Below, piece after piece: positions 3,295 through 18,091 of a stretch of DNA of 38,224 nt (positions are counted from its first letter, which is position 1; each line of letters opens with the position of its first letter). Source of the DNA: a virus. Under the pieces are notes generated by a model. It searched no databases. It was given only the letters and a program-made list of their open reading frames with translations, and had not been told where the DNA came from. Location: the IMG/VR virus record IMGVR_UViG_3300042467_001002, positions 1 through 38,224 of that record. One strand, 5' to 3'. A program made the translations under genes and the position numbers.

Positions 3295-4368
3295 ATGTAT
3301 TCAAAAGCTACTGATGATGAAATTCTAAAGGCAGTACAAGACGCTAACGGCATCCGAGCAGTAGCCGCCGCTAAATTAGGGTTAAACGAACGAAGCCTAT
3401 TGATGCGGCTAAAAAAGATGACGGCCAAGGGGTACACAATTCCGAAGTCAACGTATCGTTCTAACTCCGTAAAACAGCCCGTTGAAAAGCCGGGGTACTC
3501 ATTTACGCCGCTGCCCGATGACGACGTACCCATTGAGCAGCTTATCGAGCATCGCAAACGGCAGTTTGCGCATAAGCGCGACCACGAAGAAGCCTCGAAA
3601 CTGATTCCAATTCGGATCAAAATACCCGGCGCCATAGGCATCCTGTTCTTTGGCGACCCGCACGTCGATGACGACGGCACCGACATTGAGGCGCTGGAGC
3701 GCCACACGCAGCTCGTTCAAGACACCGAAGGACTGTTCGCCGTCAACGTAGGCGATACCACGAACAACTGGGTGGGCCGTCTGGCCAAGCTCTACGGCGA
3801 GCAGAGTACGTCAGCGGCGCAGGCCTGGCGCCTTGCTGAGTGGTTCGTTGGCCGATGCAACTGGCTCTGGATACTCGGCGGCAACCACGACCTGTGGTCA
3901 GGCTCGGGCGACCCGATGCGTTGGATTGCCAAACAACAGGACGCGCTCTACAAGTCAAGCGAGGCGCGCATCGCGCTGCGCTTCCCGAATGGGGTCGAGG
4001 TGCGCGTCAACAGCCGCCACGACCACACGGGCTCGTCAATCTGGAACCCGGCACACGGGCCAATGAAGGCGGCGATTATGGGCACCCGCGACCACATTTA
4101 TGTCGCGGGGCACAAGCACGAATCGGCTTACTCGGTGCTCAAAGACCCGATTACGGGTATTGCGATGCACACGATGAAGGTCGCCAGTTACAAAGTGTTC
4201 GATCGCTATGCCAAGGAGCGAGGCTTCCGAGACAACGCGTTCAGCCCCTGCGCCCTAGTGACAATCAACCCGAGCCTACCGCCAGACCATCCCGATATGG
4301 TCAAGGTCTGGTGGACGCCCGAGGAAGGCGCTGAATACTTACGCTACCTGCGAGCGCGGGGCGAGTAG
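3295..4368 (+). CDS. Calcineurin-like metallophosphoesterase with N-terminal helix-turn-helix
   Basis: 357 aa. Residues about 8-42 (DDEILKAVQDANGIRAVAAA, then LGLNERSLLMRLKKM) look like a Fis/HTH-type DNA-binding segment. The rest carries the metallophosphoesterase signature in order: GDPHVDD (DxH), VNVGDTTNN (GDxxxN), LGGNHDLW (GNHD), a conserved His in NSRHDHTG, and VAGHKHES (GHxH). These ligands bind two metal ions and hydrolyse phosphoesters, possibly in DNA or nucleotides. ATG follows the upstream gene by 3 bases. The last 30 bases overlap the end of the convergent gene on the other strand. I infer a role in nucleic-acid processing; the substrate cannot be read from sequence. Confidence 0.8.
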   Translation: MYSKATDDEILKAVQDANGIRAVAAAKLGLNERSLLMRLKKMTAKGYTIPKSTYRSNSVKQPVEKPGYSFTPLPDDDVPIEQLIEHRKRQFAHKRDHEEASKLIPIRIKIPGAIGILFFGDPHVDDDGTDIEALERHTQLVQDTEGLFAVNVGDTTNNWVGRLAKLYGEQSTSAAQAWRLAEWFVGRCNWLWILGGNHDLWSGSGDPMRWIAKQQDALYKSSEARIALRFPNGVEVRVNSRHDHTGSSIWNPAHGPMKAAIMGTRDHIYVAGHKHESAYSVLKDPITGIAMHTMKVASYKVFDRYAKERGFRDNAFSPCALVTINPSLPPDHPDMVKVWWTPEEGAEYLRYLRARGE

Positions 4369-4536
4369 GGCCATCATCTCAGCCCGCTCGCGTGTCGCGC
4401 GCAGGGCGCAGTAACGCTGGTGCAGTCGCTCGACAAAGGTGACGCGCTGGCGGCCTGCCATCTCGGCGTCAAGAAGGGCTTTGACCTCAGTTTCGGCCAT
4501 CTGATTCAGTTGTGCGTTTAGTTCGCGCCAGTTCAT
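4339..4536 (-). CDS. Small conserved phage protein, unknown function
   Basis: 65 aa from the ATG at 4536, which overlaps the TGA of the SNF2-like gene (ATGA) with GGGAG just upstream; an upstream ATG at 4548 is less likely. The protein is entirely helical and charged, with MNWRELNAQLNQM at the start and a VERLHQRYCALRATRERAEM segment. I recall similar short proteins (RLHQRY..LRA.RER) in many phage genomes without known role. Its last codons overlap the 3' end of the phosphoesterase gene on the opposite strand. Confidence 0.65.
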   Translation of the reverse strand: MNWRELNAQLNQMAETEVKALLDAEMAGRQRVTFVERLHQRYCALRATRERAEMMALLAPRSQVA

Positions 4537-5870
4537 TTCAGCTCCCACATTGCTACGTCTGACATGGCGCGCTTGTCATGCAGCGCCGCCCAAATCTTCT
4601 CGTCAATCGTCTTGTCCGTTTGCAGGACATAGACCCATACGTCATGCCGCTGGCCGCTACGGTGCAGCCGTCCGATCGTCTGCTCGTACTCCTCTAGCGA
4701 CCACGGCAGCGACAGAAACACCATCCGACTGCCGCCGTGCTGCAAGTTAAGCCCGTGACCCGCCGACTTCGGGTGGATCAGCAGCAGCTCAATCTCGCCT
4801 CGGTTCCACGCGTCGATGACGCCCGGTTGGTCAATCGTCGCCGCTTTCGGATACCAACGCTTCAGCGCCTCCAGCTCGGCTTGGTAATTGTAAACAATTA
4901 TCGTATTGGCGTGTTGGTTTTCGTCTAACAAGTCTTCCAGCAACTCTAACTTGTGGTCAGAAAACCACACCGTCTTCTGCGTTACGTCAAACTTGCCGAG
5001 GCGATCGGATGCCGTGCGGGTCGTGTCGTAGACGAACCCCGAGGCCATCTGCTGCAACTTGGCCGTGACAGCCGCCGCGTTAGCTGCGATCGCCTGTGCG
5101 TCGGGAAATTCCACCATAAAGTCCCGCTTCATCTTCTCGTAGGGCTCGCGGTCAAGGAGCTCGCAACGTAGCGTTACGGTATGCAGCGGCGGCAGCTTGT
5201 CTTTGTACTCGCCAGGCTCTAGCACATAGGTCGCAGGCTTGATCCGTGCCATCACCTGCTGCAACGCGCCGGTAGCGGGTGTCCACTCGCCATACTCCCT
5301 GTTGAGGCAAATAAAATACTGCTGCAAAAAGGCGCCCTTGCTTCGCCCGAGTAGGCTTTGGTCGATGATCTTGCATTGCCCAAACACATCCTCTAGGCCG
5401 TTTGACGTAAAGCTGCCCGTCAGCCCCCACCGAATCTTGACTGGCTCCAGCGCCTTTAGAATCGCCTTGAAGCGAACGCCCGACGGATTCTTGAGGCGCG
5501 TTAGCTCGTCGAACACCACGCCGTCAAAATCCATTTTCTGTTTAGCCAGCCATTGCAAATTATCGTAATTCGTGACCACCACGCGGGCGTTTGACGCTAG
5601 CGCTTTGAGTCGCCAAGAGGGCGAGCCTACAGCGACGGATAAGGTCAAATCGGGTGTCCATTTGGTTGCCTCGACCGGCCAAACGTGTTGCGCCACACGC
5701 AACGGCGCCACGACGAGCCAACGCGTGACAACGCCGTCCTGTACTGCATCGCGCATCGCCGTAAGGGTAAGCGCGGTCTTGCCCGCGCCCACAGGCGCCA
5801 GCACCATCGCGCGGTCGTGCTCGTATAAAAAGTCAGCCGCTTGCTCTTGATACGGTCTCAACGAAAGCAT
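4533..5870 (-). CDS. SNF2-family DEAD-like helicase/translocase
   Basis: 445 aa. Visible superfamily 2 motifs: LRPYQEQAADF (Q-like) at residues 4-14, Walker A APVGAGKT (25-32), VVFDELTRLKNP (motif II, D121 E122), TGSF (motif III, about 151), SAGHGLNLQ (motif V, about 369-377) and QTIGRLHRSGQ (motif VI, 397-407). The last two are typical of SNF2 proteins. It would use ATP to move on duplex DNA. The compact form beside a VRR-NUC nuclease gene is common in phages, and roles in replication start, recombination or repair have been suggested. Its start overlaps the end of the nuclease gene by 38 bases. Confidence 0.85.
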   Translation of the reverse strand: MLSLRPYQEQAADFLYEHDRAMVLAPVGAGKTALTLTAMRDAVQDGVVTRWLVVAPLRVAQHVWPVEATKWTPDLTLSVAVGSPSWRLKALASNARVVVTNYDNLQWLAKQKMDFDGVVFDELTRLKNPSGVRFKAILKALEPVKIRWGLTGSFTSNGLEDVFGQCKIIDQSLLGRSKGAFLQQYFICLNREYGEWTPATGALQQVMARIKPATYVLEPGEYKDKLPPLHTVTLRCELLDREPYEKMKRDFMVEFPDAQAIAANAAAVTAKLQQMASGFVYDTTRTASDRLGKFDVTQKTVWFSDHKLELLEDLLDENQHANTIIVYNYQAELEALKRWYPKAATIDQPGVIDAWNRGEIELLLIHPKSAGHGLNLQHGGSRMVFLSLPWSLEEYEQTIGRLHRSGQRHDVWVYVLQTDKTIDEKIWAALHDKRAMSDVAMWELK

Positions 5871-6207: not shown

Positions 6208-7332
6208 ATGAGTCATAGCAATATCGTTGGCGGGTCCACCGCCAAGCGCGTGATTAACTGCCCCGGCAGTGTCGCGCTCTGCCAGAAAGTCCCACCGAAG
6301 CCGAGCAGCAAGTACGCCGATGAAGGTACGTTGCTGCATAACGTCATGGCCGAGCTGTTGGGCTCCGACAAGGAGCTGCGTCATGTGCTCGACATGGAGT
6401 ACAACGGCATCAAACTCACCGGCGACCTGCTCGATGAGAAGGTTCGCCCAGCCATGGACGCCATCAATGAAATCGACCCTGAAGCCCGACTTGAATACGC
6501 CGTCGAGCAAACCGTCAGCTTTGGTGATCTTTTGCCGGGCGTATTTGGTTCTTGTGATCTTATTGGTCGCATTGGCGACCGCGCTATTGTACTTGATTGG
6601 AAGTTTGGCGACGGAGTGGCCGTCGAAGCTGAAGATAATCCTCAGTTATTATTTTATACGGCTGCGGCGATCCGCACGCCGGCGCTTGAGTGGGTCTTCA
6701 AAGATGCTAAAGAAATTGAGTGCATCATTGTCCAGCCGCCGAAAATCAAGCGCTGGGTGACATCGTTCGATCGCGTACGTCAGTTTGAGCGTGAGCTGGT
6801 CTATGCTGTCAAGCAGTCGGCCAAGCCTGACGCGCCGCTCAAGATCGGCGAGCATTGCCGCTGGTGTGCAGCCAAGCCCATCTGCCCGCTGATGACGGGT
6901 GCGGTCGATCGCGCCACGCAGACGCAGATCAAAGAGCTGGACGCCGAGCAGCTTGGGCAAATGCTGGAGCGCGCGGCAGTGCTTGAGGATTGGATCAGCG
7001 ACTTGCGCGCACTAGCGATGCAAGTGCTAGAGTCAGGTAATCCGGTGCCAGGCTACAAACTTGTAGCGAAGCGCGCCACACGCCAATGGCGTGACGAGGA
7101 GACGGCAAAAGCGGCGCTCTGTGCCCTGCTGCCGATCACAGAAGTGACCGAGACGAGTTTGATCTCGCCGGCACAAGCTGAGAAGAAGCTCAAAAAGCTG
7201 AAGCTCGGTTTGCCGGACGATCAGGTCATCTCGGTCTCAAGCGGTAACACGATGGCGCCGGAGAGCGATCCCCGTCCCGCCGTGTTGCAAATCGGGTCTC
7301 AGTTGACTGCGGCCCTTTCTAAACTAGTGTAG
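6208..7332 (+). CDS. DUF2800 Cas4/RecB-like nuclease
   Basis: 374 aa from the ATG at 6208, chosen because AAAGGAG lies just upstream; a longer frame from 6178 has no such site. A RecB/Cas4-type nuclease core is visible: INCPGSVALC near the N-terminus, YADEGTLLHNVMAELL (conserved helix with His), GVFGSCDLIGRIGDRAIVLDWKFGDG with the Asp and D-W-K active-site residues, then DNPQLLFYTAAA. A CRWCAAKPICPLM cluster towards the middle, with the first cysteine pair, could bind Fe-S. These features match the DUF2800 family of phage replication or recombination modules. It is the first gene of a rightward block with the polymerase and primase. Confidence 0.8.
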   Translation: MSHSNIVGGSTAKRVINCPGSVALCQKVPPKPSSKYADEGTLLHNVMAELLGSDKELRHVLDMEYNGIKLTGDLLDEKVRPAMDAINEIDPEARLEYAVEQTVSFGDLLPGVFGSCDLIGRIGDRAIVLDWKFGDGVAVEAEDNPQLLFYTAAAIRTPALEWVFKDAKEIECIIVQPPKIKRWVTSFDRVRQFERELVYAVKQSAKPDAPLKIGEHCRWCAAKPICPLMTGAVDRATQTQIKELDAEQLGQMLERAAVLEDWISDLRALAMQVLESGNPVPGYKLVAKRATRQWRDEETAKAALCALLPITEVTETSLISPAQAEKKLKKLKLGLPDDQVISVSSGNTMAPESDPRPAVLQIGSQLTAALSKLV

Positions 7333-7342
7333 GAGTAAAGTA

Positions 7343-7990
7343 ATGTCCAATATCACAGCGTTCGCAAAAGCAGGATTGCCTGCGGTAACTTCCCTGTCCA
7401 CCGCCCTTCGCAGCATCGAAGTGGATGTCGGCCCTGTCGGGTCGGCCATCCTCAAGATGGACAAGACGGGTCATTGGGTTTTTGGCGCGGATCAAACCGA
7501 AGCTGAAGCCGATAGCAAGTGGGCAGTCAACCCTTTCTCGTTCGTCCACGGCTTCATTGCCTGGGGCGACGGCGAGGTGCTCGGCGAGAAGATGGTGTCG
7601 GTGTCACAGCCGCTGCCTGAGCTCGACCCGGCGCCGCCGCAGAGCAAGAAGGGCTGGGAAACGCAGGTTGGCATGAGCTTGAAGTGCATCTCGGGTGAGG
7701 ACGCGGGCCTTGAGGCTCGCTACAGCACCACGTCGGTGGGCGGCAAGCGTGCCGTGCAGGCCTTGGCAGCAGCCATCGCCGCGCAGGTCGAGCGTGACCA
7801 GAGCAAGCCGGTGCCAGTCGTGCATCTGAAGAAGGAGCACTACCAGCACAAGAGCTATGGCCGCATCTACACGCCAGTCTTTGAGATTGTCGAGTGGGTG
7901 TCCATGGAAGGAGAGGCTACGAGCGAGCCTGAAGGTGGCGATGACACGCCGCCGCCAGCCGCTGCGGCCCGTCGGCGTCGCGCTGCGTAA
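7343..7990 (+). CDS. Replication-block protein, possible ssDNA-binding protein
   Basis: 215 aa, ATG preceded by AGGAG, 10 bases after the nuclease gene. The middle is beta-rich (GSAILKMDKTGHWVFGAD, FVHGFIAWGDGEVLGEK), and the C-terminus is acidic and then Pro/Ala/Arg-rich (after residue 195, ending AAAARRRRAA). Proteins of this type recur directly after DUF2800 genes and before polA in phages. In Firmicutes phages that slot holds DUF2815, which binds ssDNA. An SSB-like role is therefore an inference from position and from the beta-core-plus-flexible-tail design; no OB-fold motif can be proven by eye. Confidence 0.55.
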   Translation: MSNITAFAKAGLPAVTSLSTALRSIEVDVGPVGSAILKMDKTGHWVFGADQTEAEADSKWAVNPFSFVHGFIAWGDGEVLGEKMVSVSQPLPELDPAPPQSKKGWETQVGMSLKCISGEDAGLEARYSTTSVGGKRAVQALAAAIAAQVERDQSKPVPVVHLKKEHYQHKSYGRIYTPVFEIVEWVSMEGEATSEPEGGDDTPPPAAAARRRRAA

Positions 7991-10032: not shown

Positions 10033-12327
10033 ATGAAGTTCGCTGAATATATTAACAGTATCGCTCCCGAAGGGGAAACAATTTTATTCGTCCGTCAGGT
10101 GCCGATCGTCCGCAACGGCGAGCCTCTCATGCACAAGGACGGCACGCCGCGCTACACCTGGCCTGCGGGCCTCTACGGCAAGTACATGCGCAACCCGAAG
10201 GGCGCGTGGTACGCCAACACGGGCTGCTTCATCCTTGACCGCCTGACGGACAAAGTGTCGGCGTCGGCGCCTAACTGCGAGCGCGTGGCGTTCATGGTGC
10301 TGGATGACATCGGCACTAAGAGCAAGACGCCGCCCATCGAGCCAACGTGGAAGCTAGAGACCAGCCCCGGCAACTTCCAGTGGGGCTACACCTTTGGGCT
10401 TGACGATCAGCCGACCAAGGGCGAGTTCAGCGCGGCGATCAAGGCCATGGCCGAGGCGGGCTACACTGACCCCGGCGCGGTGAATCCGGTGCGTAATTTC
10501 CGCATCGAGGGCAGCGTTAACTTGAAGGAAGGCCGCGACAACTTCGCCGCCGTGCTGACTGAGTTCCACCCCGAGCGCGAGTTCTCTTTAACGCAGATCG
10601 TTAAAGCCTGCGGCGTCACGCCGGGCGAGGTCGATACGGCCTGTATCCACGGCATCGCCATCGAAGATGACGGCCTCGACAACGTGCTGGAGTGGATACA
10701 GGAGCGCGGCCTACTGCTCGCCAAGGCCAACCCCGAGGGCTGGTACGGCGTCGTCTGCCCGAACCACGCCGAGCACACCACAGCCGACGCGCAGGGGCGG
10801 TATCACCCCGTCACGCGCAGCTATACTTGCTTCCACGGGCATTGCAGCGACTGGAATAGTGAGAAGTTCCTACGCTGGGTCGAGGCCGAGGGTGGCCCCA
10901 AGACGGGCTACGGCCTGCGCGATGACCTGCTGGCTAAGAAGATGGAGGCTGCTTTGTCGAAGATCACACCGACCGAAGAATACCCAGACGAAGCCGCCGA
11001 GGTCATCAAAGAGGTCGAGCGCCGTGAGTTGGGGCGTGTAGAGAAATCCAAGTGGTACGAGCGTTTTGCTTACGTTGTGAGCGACGATGCTTATTTTGAC
11101 TTAGCCGAGCGCCATGAGATCGCCCGCACGTCGTTTAACGCCCTGTTCCGCCATGTGACGTGCCACAGCATCCACAACAACCGCCGCATCGAGGCGTCGG
11201 TCTGTTACGACGAGAACCGTCAGGCCATGGGCGCGCATGTGCTCGCAGGCGTCACGTTCGCAGCCGGCGAGTCCATCCTCGTTAGCCGTAACGGTGTCGT
11301 CTACGGCAACCGCTGGCGCGACGCTCGACCTACTGTCAGTGCAGGCGATGTCGGGCCATGGCTCGCCCACGCCGAGCGCATGATCCCAGACCCCGCCGAG
11401 CGCGAGCATGTGCTCGATGTGATGGCCTACAAGCGCCAGCACGCCAACCAAAAGATCAACCATGCCGTATTGCACGCCGGCAAGCCTGGCAGTGGTAAGG
11501 ACACGCTCTGGGCGCCGTTCTTCTGGTCTATCGGCGGCGATCAGCGCGTCAACGTCACCACGGTACGCAACGAGGAGCTCAACAGCCAGTGGGGCTACGC
11601 GCTGGAGTCTGAGGTCATCGTCATCAACGAGCTGCGACAGGCCGAGGCGCGAGACCGTCGGGCGCTTGAAAACAGCCTCAAGCCCATCATTGCTGCGCCG
11701 CCCGAGCTGCTCACGGTCAACCGTAAGGGCTTACACCCTTACGAGGCGCTCAACCGCGTACTGGTGGTGTCGTTTAGCAACGAGCGCGCTGCGATCAGCT
11801 TGCCGAGTGATGACCGGCGCTGGTTCGTCGTCTGGTCAGACGCCGATCGTATGCCGCCTGCCGAGGCGCGCGCGCTCTGGAGCTGGTACTACGCGGGCGG
11901 CTTCCAAGCCGTCGCCGCGTGGCTCGATGCCCGCGACGTATCGGCCTTCAACCCTGGCGCCGCGCCGCCGATGACCGAGGCCAAGCTCATTATGATCGAG
12001 TCGGCCATGAGTACCGCCGAGTCGTTCCTCGTCGAAATGATCCGCACGCGGCAGGGCGACTTTGCGCGCGGCGTCATCGCCTCGCCCTTCTACTCCATTT
12101 GCGACCGTCTGCAAGGCCTCGCGCCGTCTGGCGTCAAGGTCGTACAGGCGGCGCTCATGCACGCGTTGCGTGATGCGGGTTGGGTCGATTGCGGGCGCTT
12201 GCACTCGCGCGAGTTCCCAACCAAGAAGCACGTGTTTGCTCACCCGCAGTTTGCGAGCCTCGGCAAGTCAGAGCTGCGACGGATGGCCGAAGGCCTAGAG
12301 CCCGTGCTGTCAGTGGTCGGAAAATAG
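10033..12327 (+). CDS. Bifunctional primase-helicase (prim-pol plus SF3/D5-like helicase)
   Basis: 764 aa. The N-terminal third looks like an archaeo-eukaryotic-type primase (RepB/prim-pol): FMVLDDIGTK (D91, D92) and NFRIEGSVNLK (about 155-165). A zinc-finger-like set follows: C242 and H245, then C266 and C271 in TCFHGHC. The C-terminal half is a superfamily 3 AAA+ helicase: Walker A HAGKPGSGKDTLW (481-493), Walker B VIVINE (528-533), sensor VVSFSNE (578-584) and an arginine-finger-like DDRRWF (593-598), matching the DUF5906/D5 group. It would open the origin, unwind and prime. GGAG precedes the ATG. It is the last rightward replication gene and converges with the leftward early block. Confidence 0.88.
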   Translation: MKFAEYINSIAPEGETILFVRQVPIVRNGEPLMHKDGTPRYTWPAGLYGKYMRNPKGAWYANTGCFILDRLTDKVSASAPNCERVAFMVLDDIGTKSKTPPIEPTWKLETSPGNFQWGYTFGLDDQPTKGEFSAAIKAMAEAGYTDPGAVNPVRNFRIEGSVNLKEGRDNFAAVLTEFHPEREFSLTQIVKACGVTPGEVDTACIHGIAIEDDGLDNVLEWIQERGLLLAKANPEGWYGVVCPNHAEHTTADAQGRYHPVTRSYTCFHGHCSDWNSEKFLRWVEAEGGPKTGYGLRDDLLAKKMEAALSKITPTEEYPDEAAEVIKEVERRELGRVEKSKWYERFAYVVSDDAYFDLAERHEIARTSFNALFRHVTCHSIHNNRRIEASVCYDENRQAMGAHVLAGVTFAAGESILVSRNGVVYGNRWRDARPTVSAGDVGPWLAHAERMIPDPAEREHVLDVMAYKRQHANQKINHAVLHAGKPGSGKDTLWAPFFWSIGGDQRVNVTTVRNEELNSQWGYALESEVIVINELRQAEARDRRALENSLKPIIAAPPELLTVNRKGLHPYEALNRVLVVSFSNERAAISLPSDDRRWFVVWSDADRMPPAEARALWSWYYAGGFQAVAAWLDARDVSAFNPGAAPPMTEAKLIMIESAMSTAESFLVEMIRTRQGDFARGVIASPFYSICDRLQGLAPSGVKVVQAALMHALRDAGWVDCGRLHSREFPTKKHVFAHPQFASLGKSELRRMAEGLEPVLSVVGK

Positions 12328-14121: not shown

Positions 14122-14802
14122 TTAGGCTGCGGCGGACACGGGCGCCGATGGGGACGTTTCCAGCCACGACGGATTGTCAAGCGCCGTTGCGTTGCCGTAT
14201 CGCATGGGCATGATGACGCCGATACCGCAGATAAGGTGGACACGGGCAGCGCCGCCGTCACCATCTGCGGCGCCATTGTGGGCGATGGCCGGCGAATACT
14301 TAGCACCTAACAGCTTATTGATTTTCCCGAACGTGCCAATGTATTCGGCGTCGAATTGCGAGACGATGCCCGACACCTCGAGCGGCACGACACGACGCCA
14401 GAATGGATACTGCGCATCGACCAGAGCGCCTGTCAGTTTAGTGCCGCCCGCATGGATCGCCACCGTCGGCGGATGCTTAACCGGCGTATCCGGGCGGATG
14501 GCGTCAAACGTGACGGGGTGGTGGATAATCTCAATAGTCACGTCCGCACCTTTATAGGCTGGCTTGACGGTTTCCAGCAGGTCACGCGGAATGATGTATT
14601 GGCCTGGCGTATACGGCACGTCGTCGGCCGTGCCGTCAGGCGCTATTGGAAGCGCCAACAATACGTGGCCGTCGGTTGCGACCAATACAGAATCGGACGG
14701 GCGCACATCCAGCAAGATGCTATTCAGATAATACCGCGTGTCGTTTTTACCAGCGGCCAGCAACAAAGCTTTGACGGTATTGTGGGGAATGGTGAATTTC
14801 AT
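14122..14802 (-). CDS. Beta sliding-clamp homologue lacking domain 1
   Basis: 226 aa. DTRYYLNSILLD (21-32) and VATDGHVLLALPI (41-53) match the middle domain of bacterial DnaN (E. coli DVRYYLNGML and VATDGHRLAVCSMPI); IIPRDLLETVK, LVDAQYPFWRRVVP (127-140) and VIMPMRY (197-203) match the rest of domain 2 and domain 3, up to the C-terminal MPMR. The start aligns with about residue 126 of E. coli DnaN, so domain 1 is missing, and a 23-residue Pro/Ser/Ala tail is added after MPMR. It would encircle DNA and tether a polymerase or other enzyme. With two domains per chain it would need a trimer for a six-domain ring, like PCNA or T4 gp45. AGGA precedes the ATG. Confidence 0.82.
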   Translation of the reverse strand: MKFTIPHNTVKALLLAAGKNDTRYYLNSILLDVRPSDSVLVATDGHVLLALPIAPDGTADDVPYTPGQYIIPRDLLETVKPAYKGADVTIEIIHHPVTFDAIRPDTPVKHPPTVAIHAGGTKLTGALVDAQYPFWRRVVPLEVSGIVSQFDAEYIGTFGKINKLLGAKYSPAIAHNGAADGDGGAARVHLICGIGVIMPMRYGNATALDNPSWLETSPSAPVSAAA

Positions 14803-14848
14803 GGCGATTAGTCCTATAGGTTAGTTTAGTGTATCGAACGAAATAATC

Positions 14849-14861
14849 TTACAGTCTGTAA
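14849..14861. promoter_or_regulatory. Perfect palindrome upstream of the clamp gene, operator-like
   Basis: TTACAG-T-CTGTAA is a perfect 6-1-6 inverted repeat. It lies in the 59-base gap between the clamp gene start (14802) and the end of the upstream gene (14862), about 47 bases before the ATG. Its size suits a dimeric repressor. No clear -35/-10 pair was found around it. Confidence 0.4.
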
Positions 14862-15014
14862 TCAATCGCCGCAAGCGTGCGAAATGACGGCGAATGCGGC
14901 GGCGAGCGTGCCAGCAAGGTAGACGGGCATGAACGCGTCAGCGTAGACCCATGGCGCGGCGATCAGTAGCGGCGCGGCGAGGGTGGCGAGTACGGTCGAG
15001 TAACGGTAGGTCAT
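14862..15014 (-). CDS. 50-aa membrane protein
   Basis: The ATG at 15014 has GGAG 10 bases upstream; the longer frame to 15152 overlaps another gene and is unlikely. Two hydrophobic segments are visible (about residues 6-22 and 28-44) with a short loop YADAFM, and a short polar C-terminus. It is an early inner-membrane protein of unknown role; small early membrane proteins of phages often block superinfection or alter host physiology, but nothing specific can be shown here. Confidence 0.6.
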   Translation of the reverse strand: MTYRYSTVLATLAAPLLIAAPWVYADAFMPVYLAGTLAAAFAVISHACGD

Positions 15015-15045
15015 GGCGTGGGGCTCCAGGTGAGGTGGCGGGCGC

Positions 15046-15246
15046 TTATGCGCCCACCAGGTTTTCAGCGTAGGCGGCCGCCTGGTCGACATCTTTAAAG
15101 ATGCGCGAGGGTTGCACGCGGCGGTCGCTATCGAGGTCGTCGAGGTGGACAATGTAAGCGGTGCCGATGCCGGGTTTGGTCGAGGTGAGCTGGTAGACCG
15201 ATGACATCATGGCCGTCTGATAATTGTAGAATTTGATAATTTCCAT
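15046..15246 (-). CDS. First leftward early gene, unknown function
   Basis: 66 aa from the ATG at 15246, preceded by GGAG 10 bases upstream; the frame continues upstream to 15309, but that part contains a promoter. It starts MEIIKFYNYQTAMMSSVYQL, has a central HLDDLDSD acidic segment and ends IFKDVDQAAAYAENLVGA. It has no recognised motif. Its position directly after a candidate promoter makes it one of the first genes expressed, so a host-takeover role is possible. Confidence 0.6.
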   Translation of the reverse strand: MEIIKFYNYQTAMMSSVYQLTSTKPGIGTAYIVHLDDLDSDRRVQPSRIFKDVDQAAAYAENLVGA

Positions 15247-15280
15247 TTGTGCTGTCTCCGTTTGCGTTGTCGATGGGTAC

Positions 15281-15309
15281 AGATTAGACGCGCGCGCGTA
15301 GGCTGTCAA
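15281..15309 (-). promoter_or_regulatory. Candidate early leftward promoter
   Basis: On the minus strand, TTGACA (15309-15304), a 17-base spacer and TAATCT (15286-15281) lie about 35 bases before the first leftward gene. The spacer contains ACGCGC, and the -10 region reads TCTA-N2-CT, exactly as in the candidate promoter at 6150. It probably drives the leftward early chain 15246-12332. Confidence 0.55.
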
Positions 15310-15352
15310 GGATTATTTTACAAATATTAGTGGCCGTCAGCGCGTAGCATTT

Positions 15353-15459
15353 TGTGGGCATTGTGGGTCATGGTGTGGGTCATGGAATGCGGCGAGATTG
15401 CCCACGCGCAAAGGTCTGAAAACATAGGGCGCGGGTGGAGTTGTGGGCATTGTGGGTCA
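15353..15459 (+). repeat. Left arm of 9-bp iteron-like repeats (TGTGGGCAT / TGTGGGTCA)
   Basis: Five plus-oriented 9-mers: TGTGGGCAT at 15353 and 15442, and TGTGGGTCA at 15362, 15374 and 15451; those at 15353/15362 and 15442/15451 are directly abutted pairs. A single oppositely oriented TTGCCCACG lies at 15398. They are the reverse complement, or nearly so, of the units in the right arm. Confidence 0.85.
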
Positions 15460-15490
15460 TCTTTTTCTTTTTAAGTCAGTAAAAAAAATA

Positions 15491-15510
15491 TACTGTATGG
15501 ATATACAGCA
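15491..15510. promoter_or_regulatory. LexA (SOS) box-like operator
   Basis: The 16-mer at 15493-15508 reads CTGTATGGATATACAG: CTGT and ACAG half-sites with an 8-base spacer. It matches the E. coli-type LexA consensus (CTGTATATATATACAG) at 14 of 16 positions, and the 20-base context at 17 of 20. It overlaps -10-like hexamers on both strands (TATACT at 15489-15494 plus; TATATT at 15492-15487 minus). LexA bound here could repress transcription in both directions until host SOS induction. Binding is not proven. Confidence 0.6.
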
Positions 15511-15566
15511 TACAGCGCGTAGCGCTCGCACCGTTGGAGCCGCGCCGATTTTTTTTCGATGACCAC

Positions 15567-15710
15567 ATTGCCCACATGACCCACAACACGACTTCGCGCG
15601 CCATGACCCACATTGCCCACAACATGACTTGTCGGCGCATTGCCCACATTGCCCACAACATGACTTGAAAACCGATTGCCCACATTGCCCACACCTGCTA
15701 GGCCGCGCGC
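15567..15710 (-). repeat. Four tandem 36-bp repeats built from 9-bp CCCACA units (right arm)
   Basis: Units start at 15567, 15603, 15639 and 15675 with an exact 36-base period. Each begins with two abutting 9-mers of type TTGCCCACA or TGACCCACA; in the first three units these are followed by ACAYGACTT and about 8 variable bases. The fourth unit has lost the ACAYGACTT part. Two more CCCAC sites follow at 15736 and 15745, and one opposite copy at 15728. The orientation opposes that of the left arm. These look like iterons for an initiator protein. Confidence 0.9.
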
Positions 15711-15849
15711 CACACCGCCGCGCGCCGTGTGGGCATAGCCCACGTTGCCCACCACGCCCAGGCTGAATGCAAACGGGAATCATTTGCAACTGAGGGGGGT
15801 GGGCCGGCCCGCGAGCTGGTGGTCATTGGGACAATGGGTTCGTGAACAA

Positions 15850-15868
15850 TTTTTTTTTTTTATTTTTT
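15850..15868. other. Poly-T tract T12-A-T6
   Basis: An uninterrupted run of 12 T, one A, then 6 T. It follows small imperfect hairpins (CATTG-GGA-CAATG and GTTC-GT-GAAC), so it could be a terminator for plus-strand transcripts leaving the repeat region, or an easily melted or bent DNA element of the putative origin. Confidence 0.4.
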
Positions 15869-15878
15869 CAGCAAACAA

Positions 15879-16100
15879 CTATTGCCTTACACGCCGCGCG
15901 CAACTATGCTCTCGCTGCGGTGTCTGACCAGGTGCGCTGGTAGCGACCGGGAGGAAGCTGAAGGCACAATCGTGCTGCATCACTAAGGCAATCTCCGCCC
16001 CGGCACACAGGCTCGACGGATGTTCGAGATCGCGGCCTCCCGGCAGGGGATCCTGCACATCGCTTGTCAATTCCTTACGCGCACGGTACTGTTGCGACAT
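15879..16100 (-). CDS. Doubtful 73-aa leftward gene overlapping the terminase start
   Basis: An ATG at 16100 with GGGAG 10 bases upstream opens a frame of 73 codons, starting MSQQYRARKELTSDVQDPLP and containing three Cys and a basic C-terminus. It would start divergently within the first codon of the TerS gene. It occupies otherwise empty DNA and has a plausible ribosome site, but no family is recognised and no neighbour supports it. It may equally be chance; the region could hold the packaging signal. Confidence 0.25.
   Translation of the reverse strand: MSQQYRARKELTSDVQDPLPGGRDLEHPSSLCAGAEIALVMQHDCAFSFLPVATSAPGQTPQREHSCARRVRQ
16064..16092 (+). promoter_or_regulatory. Candidate late promoter before TerS
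   Basis: TTGTCA (16064-16069), a 17-base spacer with ACGCGC, and TACTGT (16087-16092). Transcription would start near 16099, at the A of the TerS ATG, implying a leaderless mRNA; no Shine-Dalgarno sequence is visible before that ATG. Confidence 0.4.
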
Positions 16101-16581
16101 GTTCAAATCGCTCCCGTATGAGCCCCGCGAGTTAAAGGCCACTGAGGCCCGCCTTCAGGCGATTTATGACGCTGCCGCGCTCGGGCTGAAGGGTGATAGC
16201 CTTGCCTTGGCGGCGGGGATGTTGCCAGCGGAGTTCCGCCGACTATGCCAAATGGACCCCCTCGCCCAAATGGCGGAGGCTAAAGGTCGTGCAGACAGTG
16301 AGTTTGAGGCCGCGAACCAACTGCGTCTGGCGGCTCGCAATGGCGATTCAAAGGCTTCTTTGGCAATCCTCCAGCATGTGCACGGCTGGGTGGCGAAGCA
16401 GCAGGTGCAGGTTGATGTCAAGCAGCAAATCAGCGTCATCGCGGCGCTGCAAGAGGCGGAGTCTCGCGTCATCGAGGGCCGAGTGGTGTCAGATACACCG
16501 GCTGCACTGAGCCACAGCCCCGCACCCACCACCCGCGCGACCCCTGCGTTGACGGCAGAGTATGCAACTACCGATCTATAG
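16099..16581 (+). CDS. Terminase small subunit (TerS)
   Basis: 160 aa. The N-terminal part is helical and HTH-like (LQAIYDAAALGLKGDSLALAAGM, then LPAEFRRLCQ), the central part is a helical oligomerisation-type region (AEAKGRADSEFEAANQLRLAARNGDSKASLAILQHVHGW), and the C-terminal tail is Pro/Thr-rich and disordered. This matches the plan of phage small terminases, which recognise packaging sites and assist TerL. It ends 20 bases inside the TerL gene, the usual arrangement. No ribosome site is visible at the start, and a promoter may end right at the ATG. Confidence 0.75.
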   Translation: MFKSLPYEPRELKATEARLQAIYDAAALGLKGDSLALAAGMLPAEFRRLCQMDPLAQMAEAKGRADSEFEAANQLRLAARNGDSKASLAILQHVHGWVAKQQVQVDVKQQISVIAALQEAESRVIEGRVVSDTPAALSHSPAPTTRATPALTAEYATTDL

Positions 16582-18091
16582 CCCCGAGGACGAGCAGCTC
16601 TTGATGACTCGGCTCTGGTCGCCCGCGATCAAGGACGACCCCGAGGCGTTCGTGCTGTTCGCCTTCCCGTGGGGGCAGAAGGGTACGCCACTGGCGCAGT
16701 TCAGCGGACCGCGCAAGTGGCAGCGTGAGGTGCTGCGCAAGGTGGCCGCGCACATCGCCCGCAATAAGAACGCGACCGGGTATGAGGTGCTGCGCATGGC
16801 AACAGCCTCGGGGCGCGGCATCGGTAAGTCGGCGCTGGTGAGCTGGCTGATCCTCTGGATGCTAACGACGCGCATCGGCTCGACCATCATCGTCTCGGCT
16901 AACAGCGAGGCGCAGCTACGCTCGGTCACATGGGCCGAGGTGACTAAGTGGCTCTCACTGCTGCTCAACAGTCATTGGTTCGAGGTCAGCGCGACGCGGG
17001 TGATGCCAGCGAAATGGCTCGCGGAGATCGTCGAGAGAGACCTGAAGAAAGGTACGCGGTACTGGTCAGTCGAAGGTCGGCTGTGGTCGGAGGAGAACCC
17101 CGACGCGTACGCGGGCGTGCACAACTTCGACGGTGTGATGGTCATATTCGACGAAGCAAGCGGTATCCCAGACCCCATCTGGTCGGTGACGGCGGGCTTC
17201 TTTACGGAGAACACACCGAACCGCTTCTGGCTCGCCTTCAGCAACCCACGACGCAACGAGGGGTATTTCTATGAGTGCTTCAACGCGAAAAGGGAATTCT
17301 GGACAACGCAAAACATCGACGCCCGCCAAGTTGAAGATACGGATAAAGCCGTCTACGAGCAAATCATCGCTGAGTATGGAGCAGATAGTAGCCAGGCAAA
17401 AGTCGAGGTCTACGGAGAGTTTCCTTCAGACGGCGACGACCAGTTCATTGCTCCGCGAATTGTGGACGAGGCTATGGCGCGGTCACGGTACAAGGACGAG
17501 ACAGCGCCACGCGTTATCGGAGTCGATCCAGCGCGAAGCGGCGCAGACTCCACCGTCATCGTCGTCCGACAAGGGCGCGACGTGGTGGCGATCAAGCGCT
17601 ACCGGGGAGAAGACACGATGGCGACCGTTGGCCGAGTCATCGACGCGATTGAAGAATTTAATCCAGCGCTTACGGTCATAGACGAGGGCGGTCTCGGCTA
17701 CGGAATACTTGACCGGCTGAAAGAGCAGCGGTATAAGGTTCGTGGGGTAAACTTTGGCTGGAAGGCTAAGAACCCTGTGATGTGGGGCAACAAGCGCGCC
17801 GAGATGTGGGGCGACATGCGAGAATGGCTACGCACGGCGAGCATCCCGCATGATCGGCTACTCAAGTCGGACCTGTGCGGGCCGCACGTCAAGCCTAACT
17901 CGTCAGGGACGATCTTCTTGGAGGGTAAGAAGGAGATGAAGGCTAGAGGTCAAGCGTCGCCCGATGCGGCAGACGCCCTCGCCGTCACCTTCGCCTACCC
18001 GCTCGCTAGCCGTGAGGCCCGCGACGCGCCAAGACGAGTGGTCGCCCGGCAGGGCGGCAACGGCATGGCTAGCAGTTGGATGGGAGCCTGA
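16562..18091 (+). CDS. Terminase large subunit (TerL)
   Basis: 509 aa. ATPase domain: TASGRGIGKSAL (Walker A, about 81-92) and VMVIFDEAS (Walker B, D197 E198), with the segment FSNPRRNEGYF (about 226-236) following as the coupling motif region. RNase H-like nuclease domain: GVDPARSGADST (D322), VIDEGGLGYG (D374) and SPDAADALAVTFAYP (D468, D471). It would power DNA packaging through the portal and cut the concatemer. The ATG overlaps TerS by 20 bases, and its stop overlaps the next gene by one base. Length is normal for a phage terminase. Confidence 0.92.
   Translation: MQLPIYSPEDEQLLMTRLWSPAIKDDPEAFVLFAFPWGQKGTPLAQFSGPRKWQREVLRKVAAHIARNKNATGYEVLRMATASGRGIGKSALVSWLILWMLTTRIGSTIIVSANSEAQLRSVTWAEVTKWLSLLLNSHWFEVSATRVMPAKWLAEIVERDLKKGTRYWSVEGRLWSEENPDAYAGVHNFDGVMVIFDEASGIPDPIWSVTAGFFTENTPNRFWLAFSNPRRNEGYFYECFNAKREFWTTQNIDARQVEDTDKAVYEQIIAEYGADSSQAKVEVYGEFPSDGDDQFIAPRIVDEAMARSRYKDETAPRVIGVDPARSGADSTVIVVRQGRDVVAIKRYRGEDTMATVGRVIDAIEEFNPALTVIDEGGLGYGILDRLKEQRYKVRGVNFGWKAKNPVMWGNKRAEMWGDMREWLRTASIPHDRLLKSDLCGPHVKPNSSGTIFLEGKKEMKARGQASPDAADALAVTFAYPLASREARDAPRRVVARQGGNGMASSWMGA

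Follow-up and report, generated by a model that had tools for sequence, protein, structure and literature searches.

A facing array of 9-bp repeats as the probable replication origin of a podovirus-like phage, with a wing residue of the primase-helicase co-varying with the repeat word

Introduction

The alpha protein of satellite P4 is a primase-helicase that binds short repeats at the origin (ori and crr repeats). Origins of phage-inducible chromosomal islands (PICIs) and Staphylococcus aureus pathogenicity islands (SaPIs) are described as two sets of iterons around an AT-rich stretch, a plan that the same account presents as common to PICIs and to no other known bacterial replicon (PMC6092414), and the SaPI Rep protein is reported to recognise the iterons via its C-terminal domain (PMC7581432). 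In the phage-inducible chromosomal island-like elements (PLEs), an origin-directed nuclease is described as a possible driver of the co-variation between iterons and initiator (PMC8263062, PMC7145576). Here we analyse a virus record of 38,224 bases (IMGVR_UViG_3300042467_001002), whose whole length is called the window below, in which two facing arms of 9-mers surround an AT-rich core at positions 15353-15753. Compared across related phages, this array is very probably the origin of replication of the phage DNA. The open-licence literature yielded no account of the origin of this phage family or of the pairing between residue 726 of the primase-helicase and position 8 of the repeat word reported below.

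Results

Co-variation of the origin word with the primase-helicase

Candidate readers of the repeat word were sought among the phage proteins. Whole-protein distances (Mantel tests) gave no clear binder, and the single-stranded-DNA-binding (SSB)-like protein (r = 0.757, n = 14) was discarded, as loci L240 and L246 share 97% of it and differ in their words. A column-by-column scan led, for word positions 4, 6 and 8, to the C-terminal end of the primase-helicase; residues 722-726 there fall within the motif G-R-L-H-S-R. Arginine at residue 726 (R726) pairs with C at position 8 (C8), and K, G or F at this residue with A8. When seven proteins were compared in 4816 column-residue tests, C8 correlated best with R726 (phi 0.957, n = 123, 2 exceptions), the next-best correlate reaching a phi of 0.797 (n = 41). 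The first set, in which 111 of 150 loci were resolved (97/124 with R726 and 14/26 without), comprised 86 unique loci: 68 with R726 and C8, 13 with neither, and five exceptions.

Three predictions, for residue 726 and position 8 (P1), 722 and 5 (P2), and 724 and 6 (P3), were fixed after the wings had been read and before the words of 154 new loci were. P1 held without exception in the 46 unique held-out loci (28 R/C, 18 non-R/non-C). After removal of the seven held-out loci that overlapped first-set contigs at or above about 10%, it held in 24 of 24 loci with R726 and in 16 of 16 without; leaving out the doubtful registrations among these 40 words (L339, L448 and L477), the counts were 24/24 and 13/13. 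The scanned region covered 300-5500 bases, as against 2.5 kb downstream of the gene in the prior plan, the cut-offs (registration score of 2.6, at least 7 sites) were chosen once the words had been looked at a first time, and unusual words may escape the registration template (T K R, A7, A9). A tree of 91 rows from which the C-terminal part was left out shows 8 changes of R726 and 10 of C8. In most of 200 pairings of lineages, C8 went along with R726 in every independent pair (8 of 8; sign test, median p = 0.008). Taken at the level of sequence, this suggests that a single residue at the wing tip of the primase-helicase recognises one letter of the word, the two changing together, which agrees with the guess of a preliminary description of the window that this protein is the binder.

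Position 6 appears to follow residue 724 loosely. Among new unique loci tested for P3, K, H or R at 724 went with C6 in 23 of 25, and small residues with non-C in 10 and with C in 5; no single residue of 724 tops the scan for position 6, and some columns of other proteins roughly match the grouped rule in strength.

Other genes were also considered as readers. A 69-amino-acid open reading frame on the minus strand (4339-4548), after the helicase gene, was present in 21 of 21 genomes compared; its product was rejected, being nearly unchanged between L245 and L258, two loci with different words. A metallophosphoesterase with a possible N-terminal helix-turn-helix (3295-4368) occurs in only 9 of 30 records and hence is not universal. 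No conserved, variable DNA-binding gene stood out between the L245 and L258 genomes.

Architecture of the array

Every 9-mer that the preliminary description had listed in the two facing arms was recovered at its position. The left arm has five plus-strand 9-mers (starts 15353, 15362, 15374, 15442 and 15451), together with an inverted site, overlooked before, that is kept up to its last bases in 20 aligned relatives. The right arm has eight minus-strand 9-mers in four abutting pairs (starts 15568, 15604, 15640 and 15676), then a plus-strand site at 15728 and degenerate inverted sites up to 15753; flanking single sites had been noted before. The right arm had also been called an exact 36-bp tandem repeat: its period is indeed exactly 36, but its four units are not identical (3.6 copies, 80% matches and a score of 145 in Tandem Repeats Finder).

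Strict 9-mers numbered 14 near 15.35-15.74 kb, against a mean of 0.12 and a maximum of 2 in 1000 dinucleotide shuffles, and TGTGGG occurred 15 times on both strands of 14700-16099 (mean 0.91 and maximum 5 in 1000 dinucleotide shuffles). Other 400-bp stretches of the window, sampled every 20 bases, held at most one strict 9-mer. The most AT-rich 50 bp of the window sits in the core (start 15463, 78% AT); 50-bp segments at this value were 6 of 38,174, all within the 15-kb block. The core also holds a CTGT-N8-ACAG palindrome, which we take to resemble a LexA box and which could be a LexA-type operator or a hairpin; in other clades it is replaced by palindromes of other sequence, e.g., CTGTATAAACATACAG and CTGTATAGGCGTACAG. 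Searches of Rfam gave no match in 15200-16150 up to an E-value of 0.1, and no tRNA genes were found.

Place, grammar and words among relatives

By sequence comparison, the array represents an element that recurs across a large podovirus family, most of it uncultured. A search for the doubled word returned at least 119 stretches, and 75 collected loci, some of their contigs present twice, carried at least five strict CCCACA-type sites. In all 57 of these with a match to terS, the gene for the terminase small subunit, the element immediately upstream was the array. Site offsets such as 0, 9, 21, 89, 98 then 218, 227 recur among relatives, the first three and the 89 and 98 of the inner doublet corresponding to the left arm; 20 aligned relatives have in common the sites, the AT-rich core and the core palindrome, the latter with clade-specific sequence.

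The preliminary description had proposed that absence of the array from relatives sharing the replication genes would speak against an origin. The literal TGTGGG array is indeed absent from most relatives of the portal scan, but many of them carry arrays of other words at the same place, and the objection was overturned once words were sought de novo. Words included CCCACA, CCCAAA, GCCAACA, CCTACA, TCCACA and CCCATA; by locus, alternatives were TGACCCAAA (L227-L235), GCCAACA (L247, L254, L258-L261), TTGTCCACA (L070, L118) and CCTACA (L059, L253). The site pattern of L234 (CCCAAA; -0 -9 -20 +45 -87 -96 +214 +223) is near-identical to that of L007 (CCCACA; -0 -9 -21 +42 -89 -98 +213 +222).

Further repeats adjoin some arrays. 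L239, L108 and similar loci have six to seven palindromes of about 30 bp (AAGTTAGTG nn CACTAACTT) 130-450 bases before terS, between the right arm and a G-rich stretch, a feature of many relatives whose primase-helicase is about 60% identical. At L008, at least 14 copies of the 7-bp unit GGCTGAC adjoin the array, about 360-450 bases before terS.

Linkage to the replication module

Six loci extending 3.97-8.0 kb beyond the array (L103, L111, L120, L151, L158 and L178) matched the primase-helicase and gave no match to TerS, the terminase large subunit (TerL) or the portal of the window. The five of them that were read (all except L158) have a different terminase/portal set and yet carry TTGCCCACA or TGACCCACA arrays. 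Since the array is retained beside different terminase/portal sets, it follows the replication module. Among the loci of the portal scan, arrays above 20 shuffles were present in 15 of 17 with the primase-helicase in the record (L049 counted among them) vs. 1 of 5 without it, this one (L074) having a palindromic CCCATTGGG repeat.

Phage DSL-LC05 shares the portal family, has a different replication module and gave no match to the primase-helicase. Palindromic TGACCCA-S-TGGGTCA repeats, a different design, lie beside its terS (L481, 33441-33970) and are perhaps its origin. In MW202483 (L480), the primase-helicase is 52.5% identical with another wing (M, F, P), and a dense TAYRTAAACA array, whose repeat could not be registered, precedes terS; 7083-7379 and 10208-10580 cover a small gene, its product annotated as a helix-turn-helix protein of DnaA type, and this array. 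Among the 40 listed of 178 matches, the best annotated-phage match of the primase-helicase was an environmental genome (52.5%), followed by a Vibrio phage (26.9%).

Predicted structure of the primase-helicase

An AlphaFold2 model built from a 50-row alignment reached a predicted local distance difference test (pLDDT) score of 84. Its best Foldseek match was the helicase part of the NrS-1 primase-polymerase (6k9c; E = 9.5e-16, 13-14% identity in the structural alignment), and PriRep1 with double-stranded DNA ranked 33 among the structural matches. The C-terminal domain is predicted to be a winged helix in which strands 718-723 and 732-736 flank a wing at 724-731. Foldseek with this domain alone gave no match at E 0.001 or better; with VIA-align the best Z was 6.1, and the weak matches were mostly winged-helix domains.

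Genome context

The window belongs to a podovirus-like phage with a P22-like portal and encodes terminase, portal and capsid-region proteins (Table 1); the label P22-like is based on an annotated match, to Phage DSL-LC05, and on MW202483. The array lies, as had been described, at a transcription divide, in the gap between leftward small early genes and the rightward terS and terL. From the stop codon of the primase-helicase to the first array site there are 3,026 bp, with leftward genes between. By-eye comparison finds the G-rich stretch and the T-tract again, in the interval from array to terS, even in relatives with quite different arrays.

Table 1. Coordinates of the array and of associated features in the window
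Feature	Position	Strand	Detail
Primase-helicase	10033..12327	+	Pfam DUF5906, 764 amino acids; proposed origin-binding initiator
Primase-helicase, C-terminal domain	11929..12324	+	Residues 633-764; predicted winged helix
Wing codons 722-726	12196..12210	+	R722, H724, R726
Left arm, three 9-mers	15353..15382	+	TGTGGGCAT 15353-15361, TGTGGGTCA 15362-15370, TGTGGGTCA 15374-15382
Inverted site inside left arm	15398..15406	-	TTGCCCACG
Left arm, inner doublet	15442..15459	+	TGTGGGCAT TGTGGGTCA
AT-rich core	15460..15512		Candidate unwinding element
Core palindrome	15493..15508		CTGT-N8-ACAG
Right arm, four abutting 9-mer pairs	15568..15693	-	15568-15585, 15604-15621, 15640-15657, 15676-15693
Outer sites	15728..15753		+ TGTGGGCAT 15728-15736; degenerate inverted sites up to 15753
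G-rich stretch then T-tract	15790..15872	+	GGGGGGTGGGCC; by-eye comparison
terS	16099-16581	+	
terL	16562-18091	+	

Discussion

The comparisons establish the array, its conserved place and grammar, its linkage to the primase-helicase and the co-variation of position 8 with residue 726. The preliminary description had put the array forward as a candidate origin, a proposal that is well supported here: we read it as such because it stays with the polymerase/primase-helicase module, because its word co-varies with a wing residue, and because its plan is that published for PICIs and SaPIs. We hold it highly probable that the phage primase-helicase binds this origin through its C-terminal wing, melts the core and loads as helicase. 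Copies of the protein would bind the 9-mers via the wing of the winged helix, R726 reading the G opposite C8 and residue 724 biasing position 6; filling both facing arms, they would melt the AT-rich core between them and load there, and the fused primase would start synthesis with the family-A polymerase of the phage. Direct binding, residue-base contact, melting, loading and origin activity are what we infer from these comparisons. More tentatively, and with the odds somewhat against it, single wing residues might form a recognition code that re-specifies the origin word (726 setting position 8, 724 biasing position 6) while the grammar is kept.

Several observations weigh against this account. 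No switch of GC skew, the check suggested in the preliminary description, was seen near 15.5 kb, and L015 and L019 have the primase-helicase but no array above shuffles. Five loci of the first set (L012, L027, L028, L237 and L251, with 7-9 sites each) break the 726/position 8 rule, and the predicted pairing of R722 with C5 failed. L258 (GCCAACA) differs at word position 6 from L240 and L245 (TGACCYACA), with primase-helicases 97% identical and the same wing. Finally, words were resolved in 54 of 139 held-out loci, and 76 of the other 85 were non-R726 (34/43 resolved with R726, 20/96 without), so that non-R726 lineages are under-sampled.

Among the alternatives, it is improbable that the array is a regulatory region only, made of operators for a phage repressor or the primase-helicase at divergent early and late promoters. 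Its place at the divide of leftward and rightward genes would suit such a role, as would the CTGT-N8-ACAG palindrome of the core and the further palindromes in relatives. However, a promoter scan gave one promoter-like site, no more than in shuffles, 10-20 sites, lying on both strands and surrounding the most AT-rich core, exceed a usual operator, and the protein singled out as binder is a helicase. The array might serve both purposes, regulatory and as origin.

We give equally little credit to R726 and C8 having been co-inherited by chance in a few clades, the word being determined by some other factor or by the pairing of inverted copies. In the smaller first sets, columns of the polymerase, SSB-like, DUF2800 and helicase proteins likewise separated the loci without error, and L258 and L245 share a wing while differing in word. 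Against this, the columns of other proteins fall to a phi of 0.80 or less with more loci, the independent lineage pairs all agree, and the advance prediction held in 40 of 40 new unique loci.

A packaging site (pac or cos region), with the terminase small subunit binding the repeats, is less probable still. The constant position next to terS speaks for it, and a TerS-bound site would be expected to stay with its cognate terminase; instead, CCCACA-type arrays persist with a different TerS/TerL/portal set at the five loci read, and the array, kept where the terminase/portal module differs, is for that reason not taken as a site for TerS. In addition, 97% identical TerS proteins go with different words (L198 vs. 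L108/L276), and among 108 TerS sequences no column was one of the 12 strongest correlates of position 8.

Least probable of all is an origin fired by host DnaA from diverged DnaA boxes: the 9-mers have the same length and similar letters, and TTGTCCACA, which we take to be a DnaA box form, occurs in some relatives, but the window has no TTATNCACA, the words turn over (CCCAAA, GCCAACA, CCTACA) where DnaA boxes are, to our knowledge, nearly universal, and a host protein leaves the tracking of the word by residue 726 of a phage protein unexplained.

An origin read by the primase-helicase would place the PICI-type plan in complete phages, of a family for which metagenomes are nearly the sole source. 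Word and wing occur in many natural pairs, with which the specificity between initiator and origin can be tested directly on domains taken from nature; such pairs would also allow an origin to be located, and assigned to its initiator, by sequence alone. They further raise the question why origin words change so fast among phages with otherwise alike replication proteins. If the recognition code were true, the relatives would fall into numerous replicon groups deaf to one another; what keeps these apart might be origin-directed nucleases, satellites or co-infecting kin, in line with the proposal for PLE and Odn.

As regards described systems, the NrS-1 primase-polymerase is the closest solved structure of the helicase part and also recognises a short template word, which in the cited account is a primer start site on single strands (PMC8718748). 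In PLE RepA and Odn of ICP1, origin iterons likewise co-vary with the DNA-binding domain of the initiator among relatives; the initiator described there is of the RepA_N type without helicase or primase, the iterons are three of about 30 bp, and whole domains are swapped, whereas single residues change here (PMC8263062, PMC7145576). Cch2 of SCCmec is reported as a helicase that loads itself and whose C-terminal domain, when isolated, binds repeats adjacent to its operon, with the difference that its iterons are few and of 5 nucleotides and that a separate CCPol-MP pair primes (PMC7581432). The nearest likeness is to the Rep-ori systems of PICIs and SaPIs, where two iteron sets likewise surround an AT-rich stretch (PMC6092414) and the initiator is described as a helicase, often fused to a primase, that reads iterons by its C-terminal domain (PMC6092414, PMC7581432), a mode of recognition to which the co-variation of residue 726 and position 8 would correspond in the phage. 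The phage differs in its abutting 9-bp words and single-residue co-variation, in the distance of the origin from the initiator stop codon, behind other genes, whereas theirs is immediately 3' of the initiator, and in being a complete phage with portal, capsid and terminase instead of a satellite island without structural genes. Since the array thus sits in a complete phage and not beside the initiator gene, we do not file it as a PICI.
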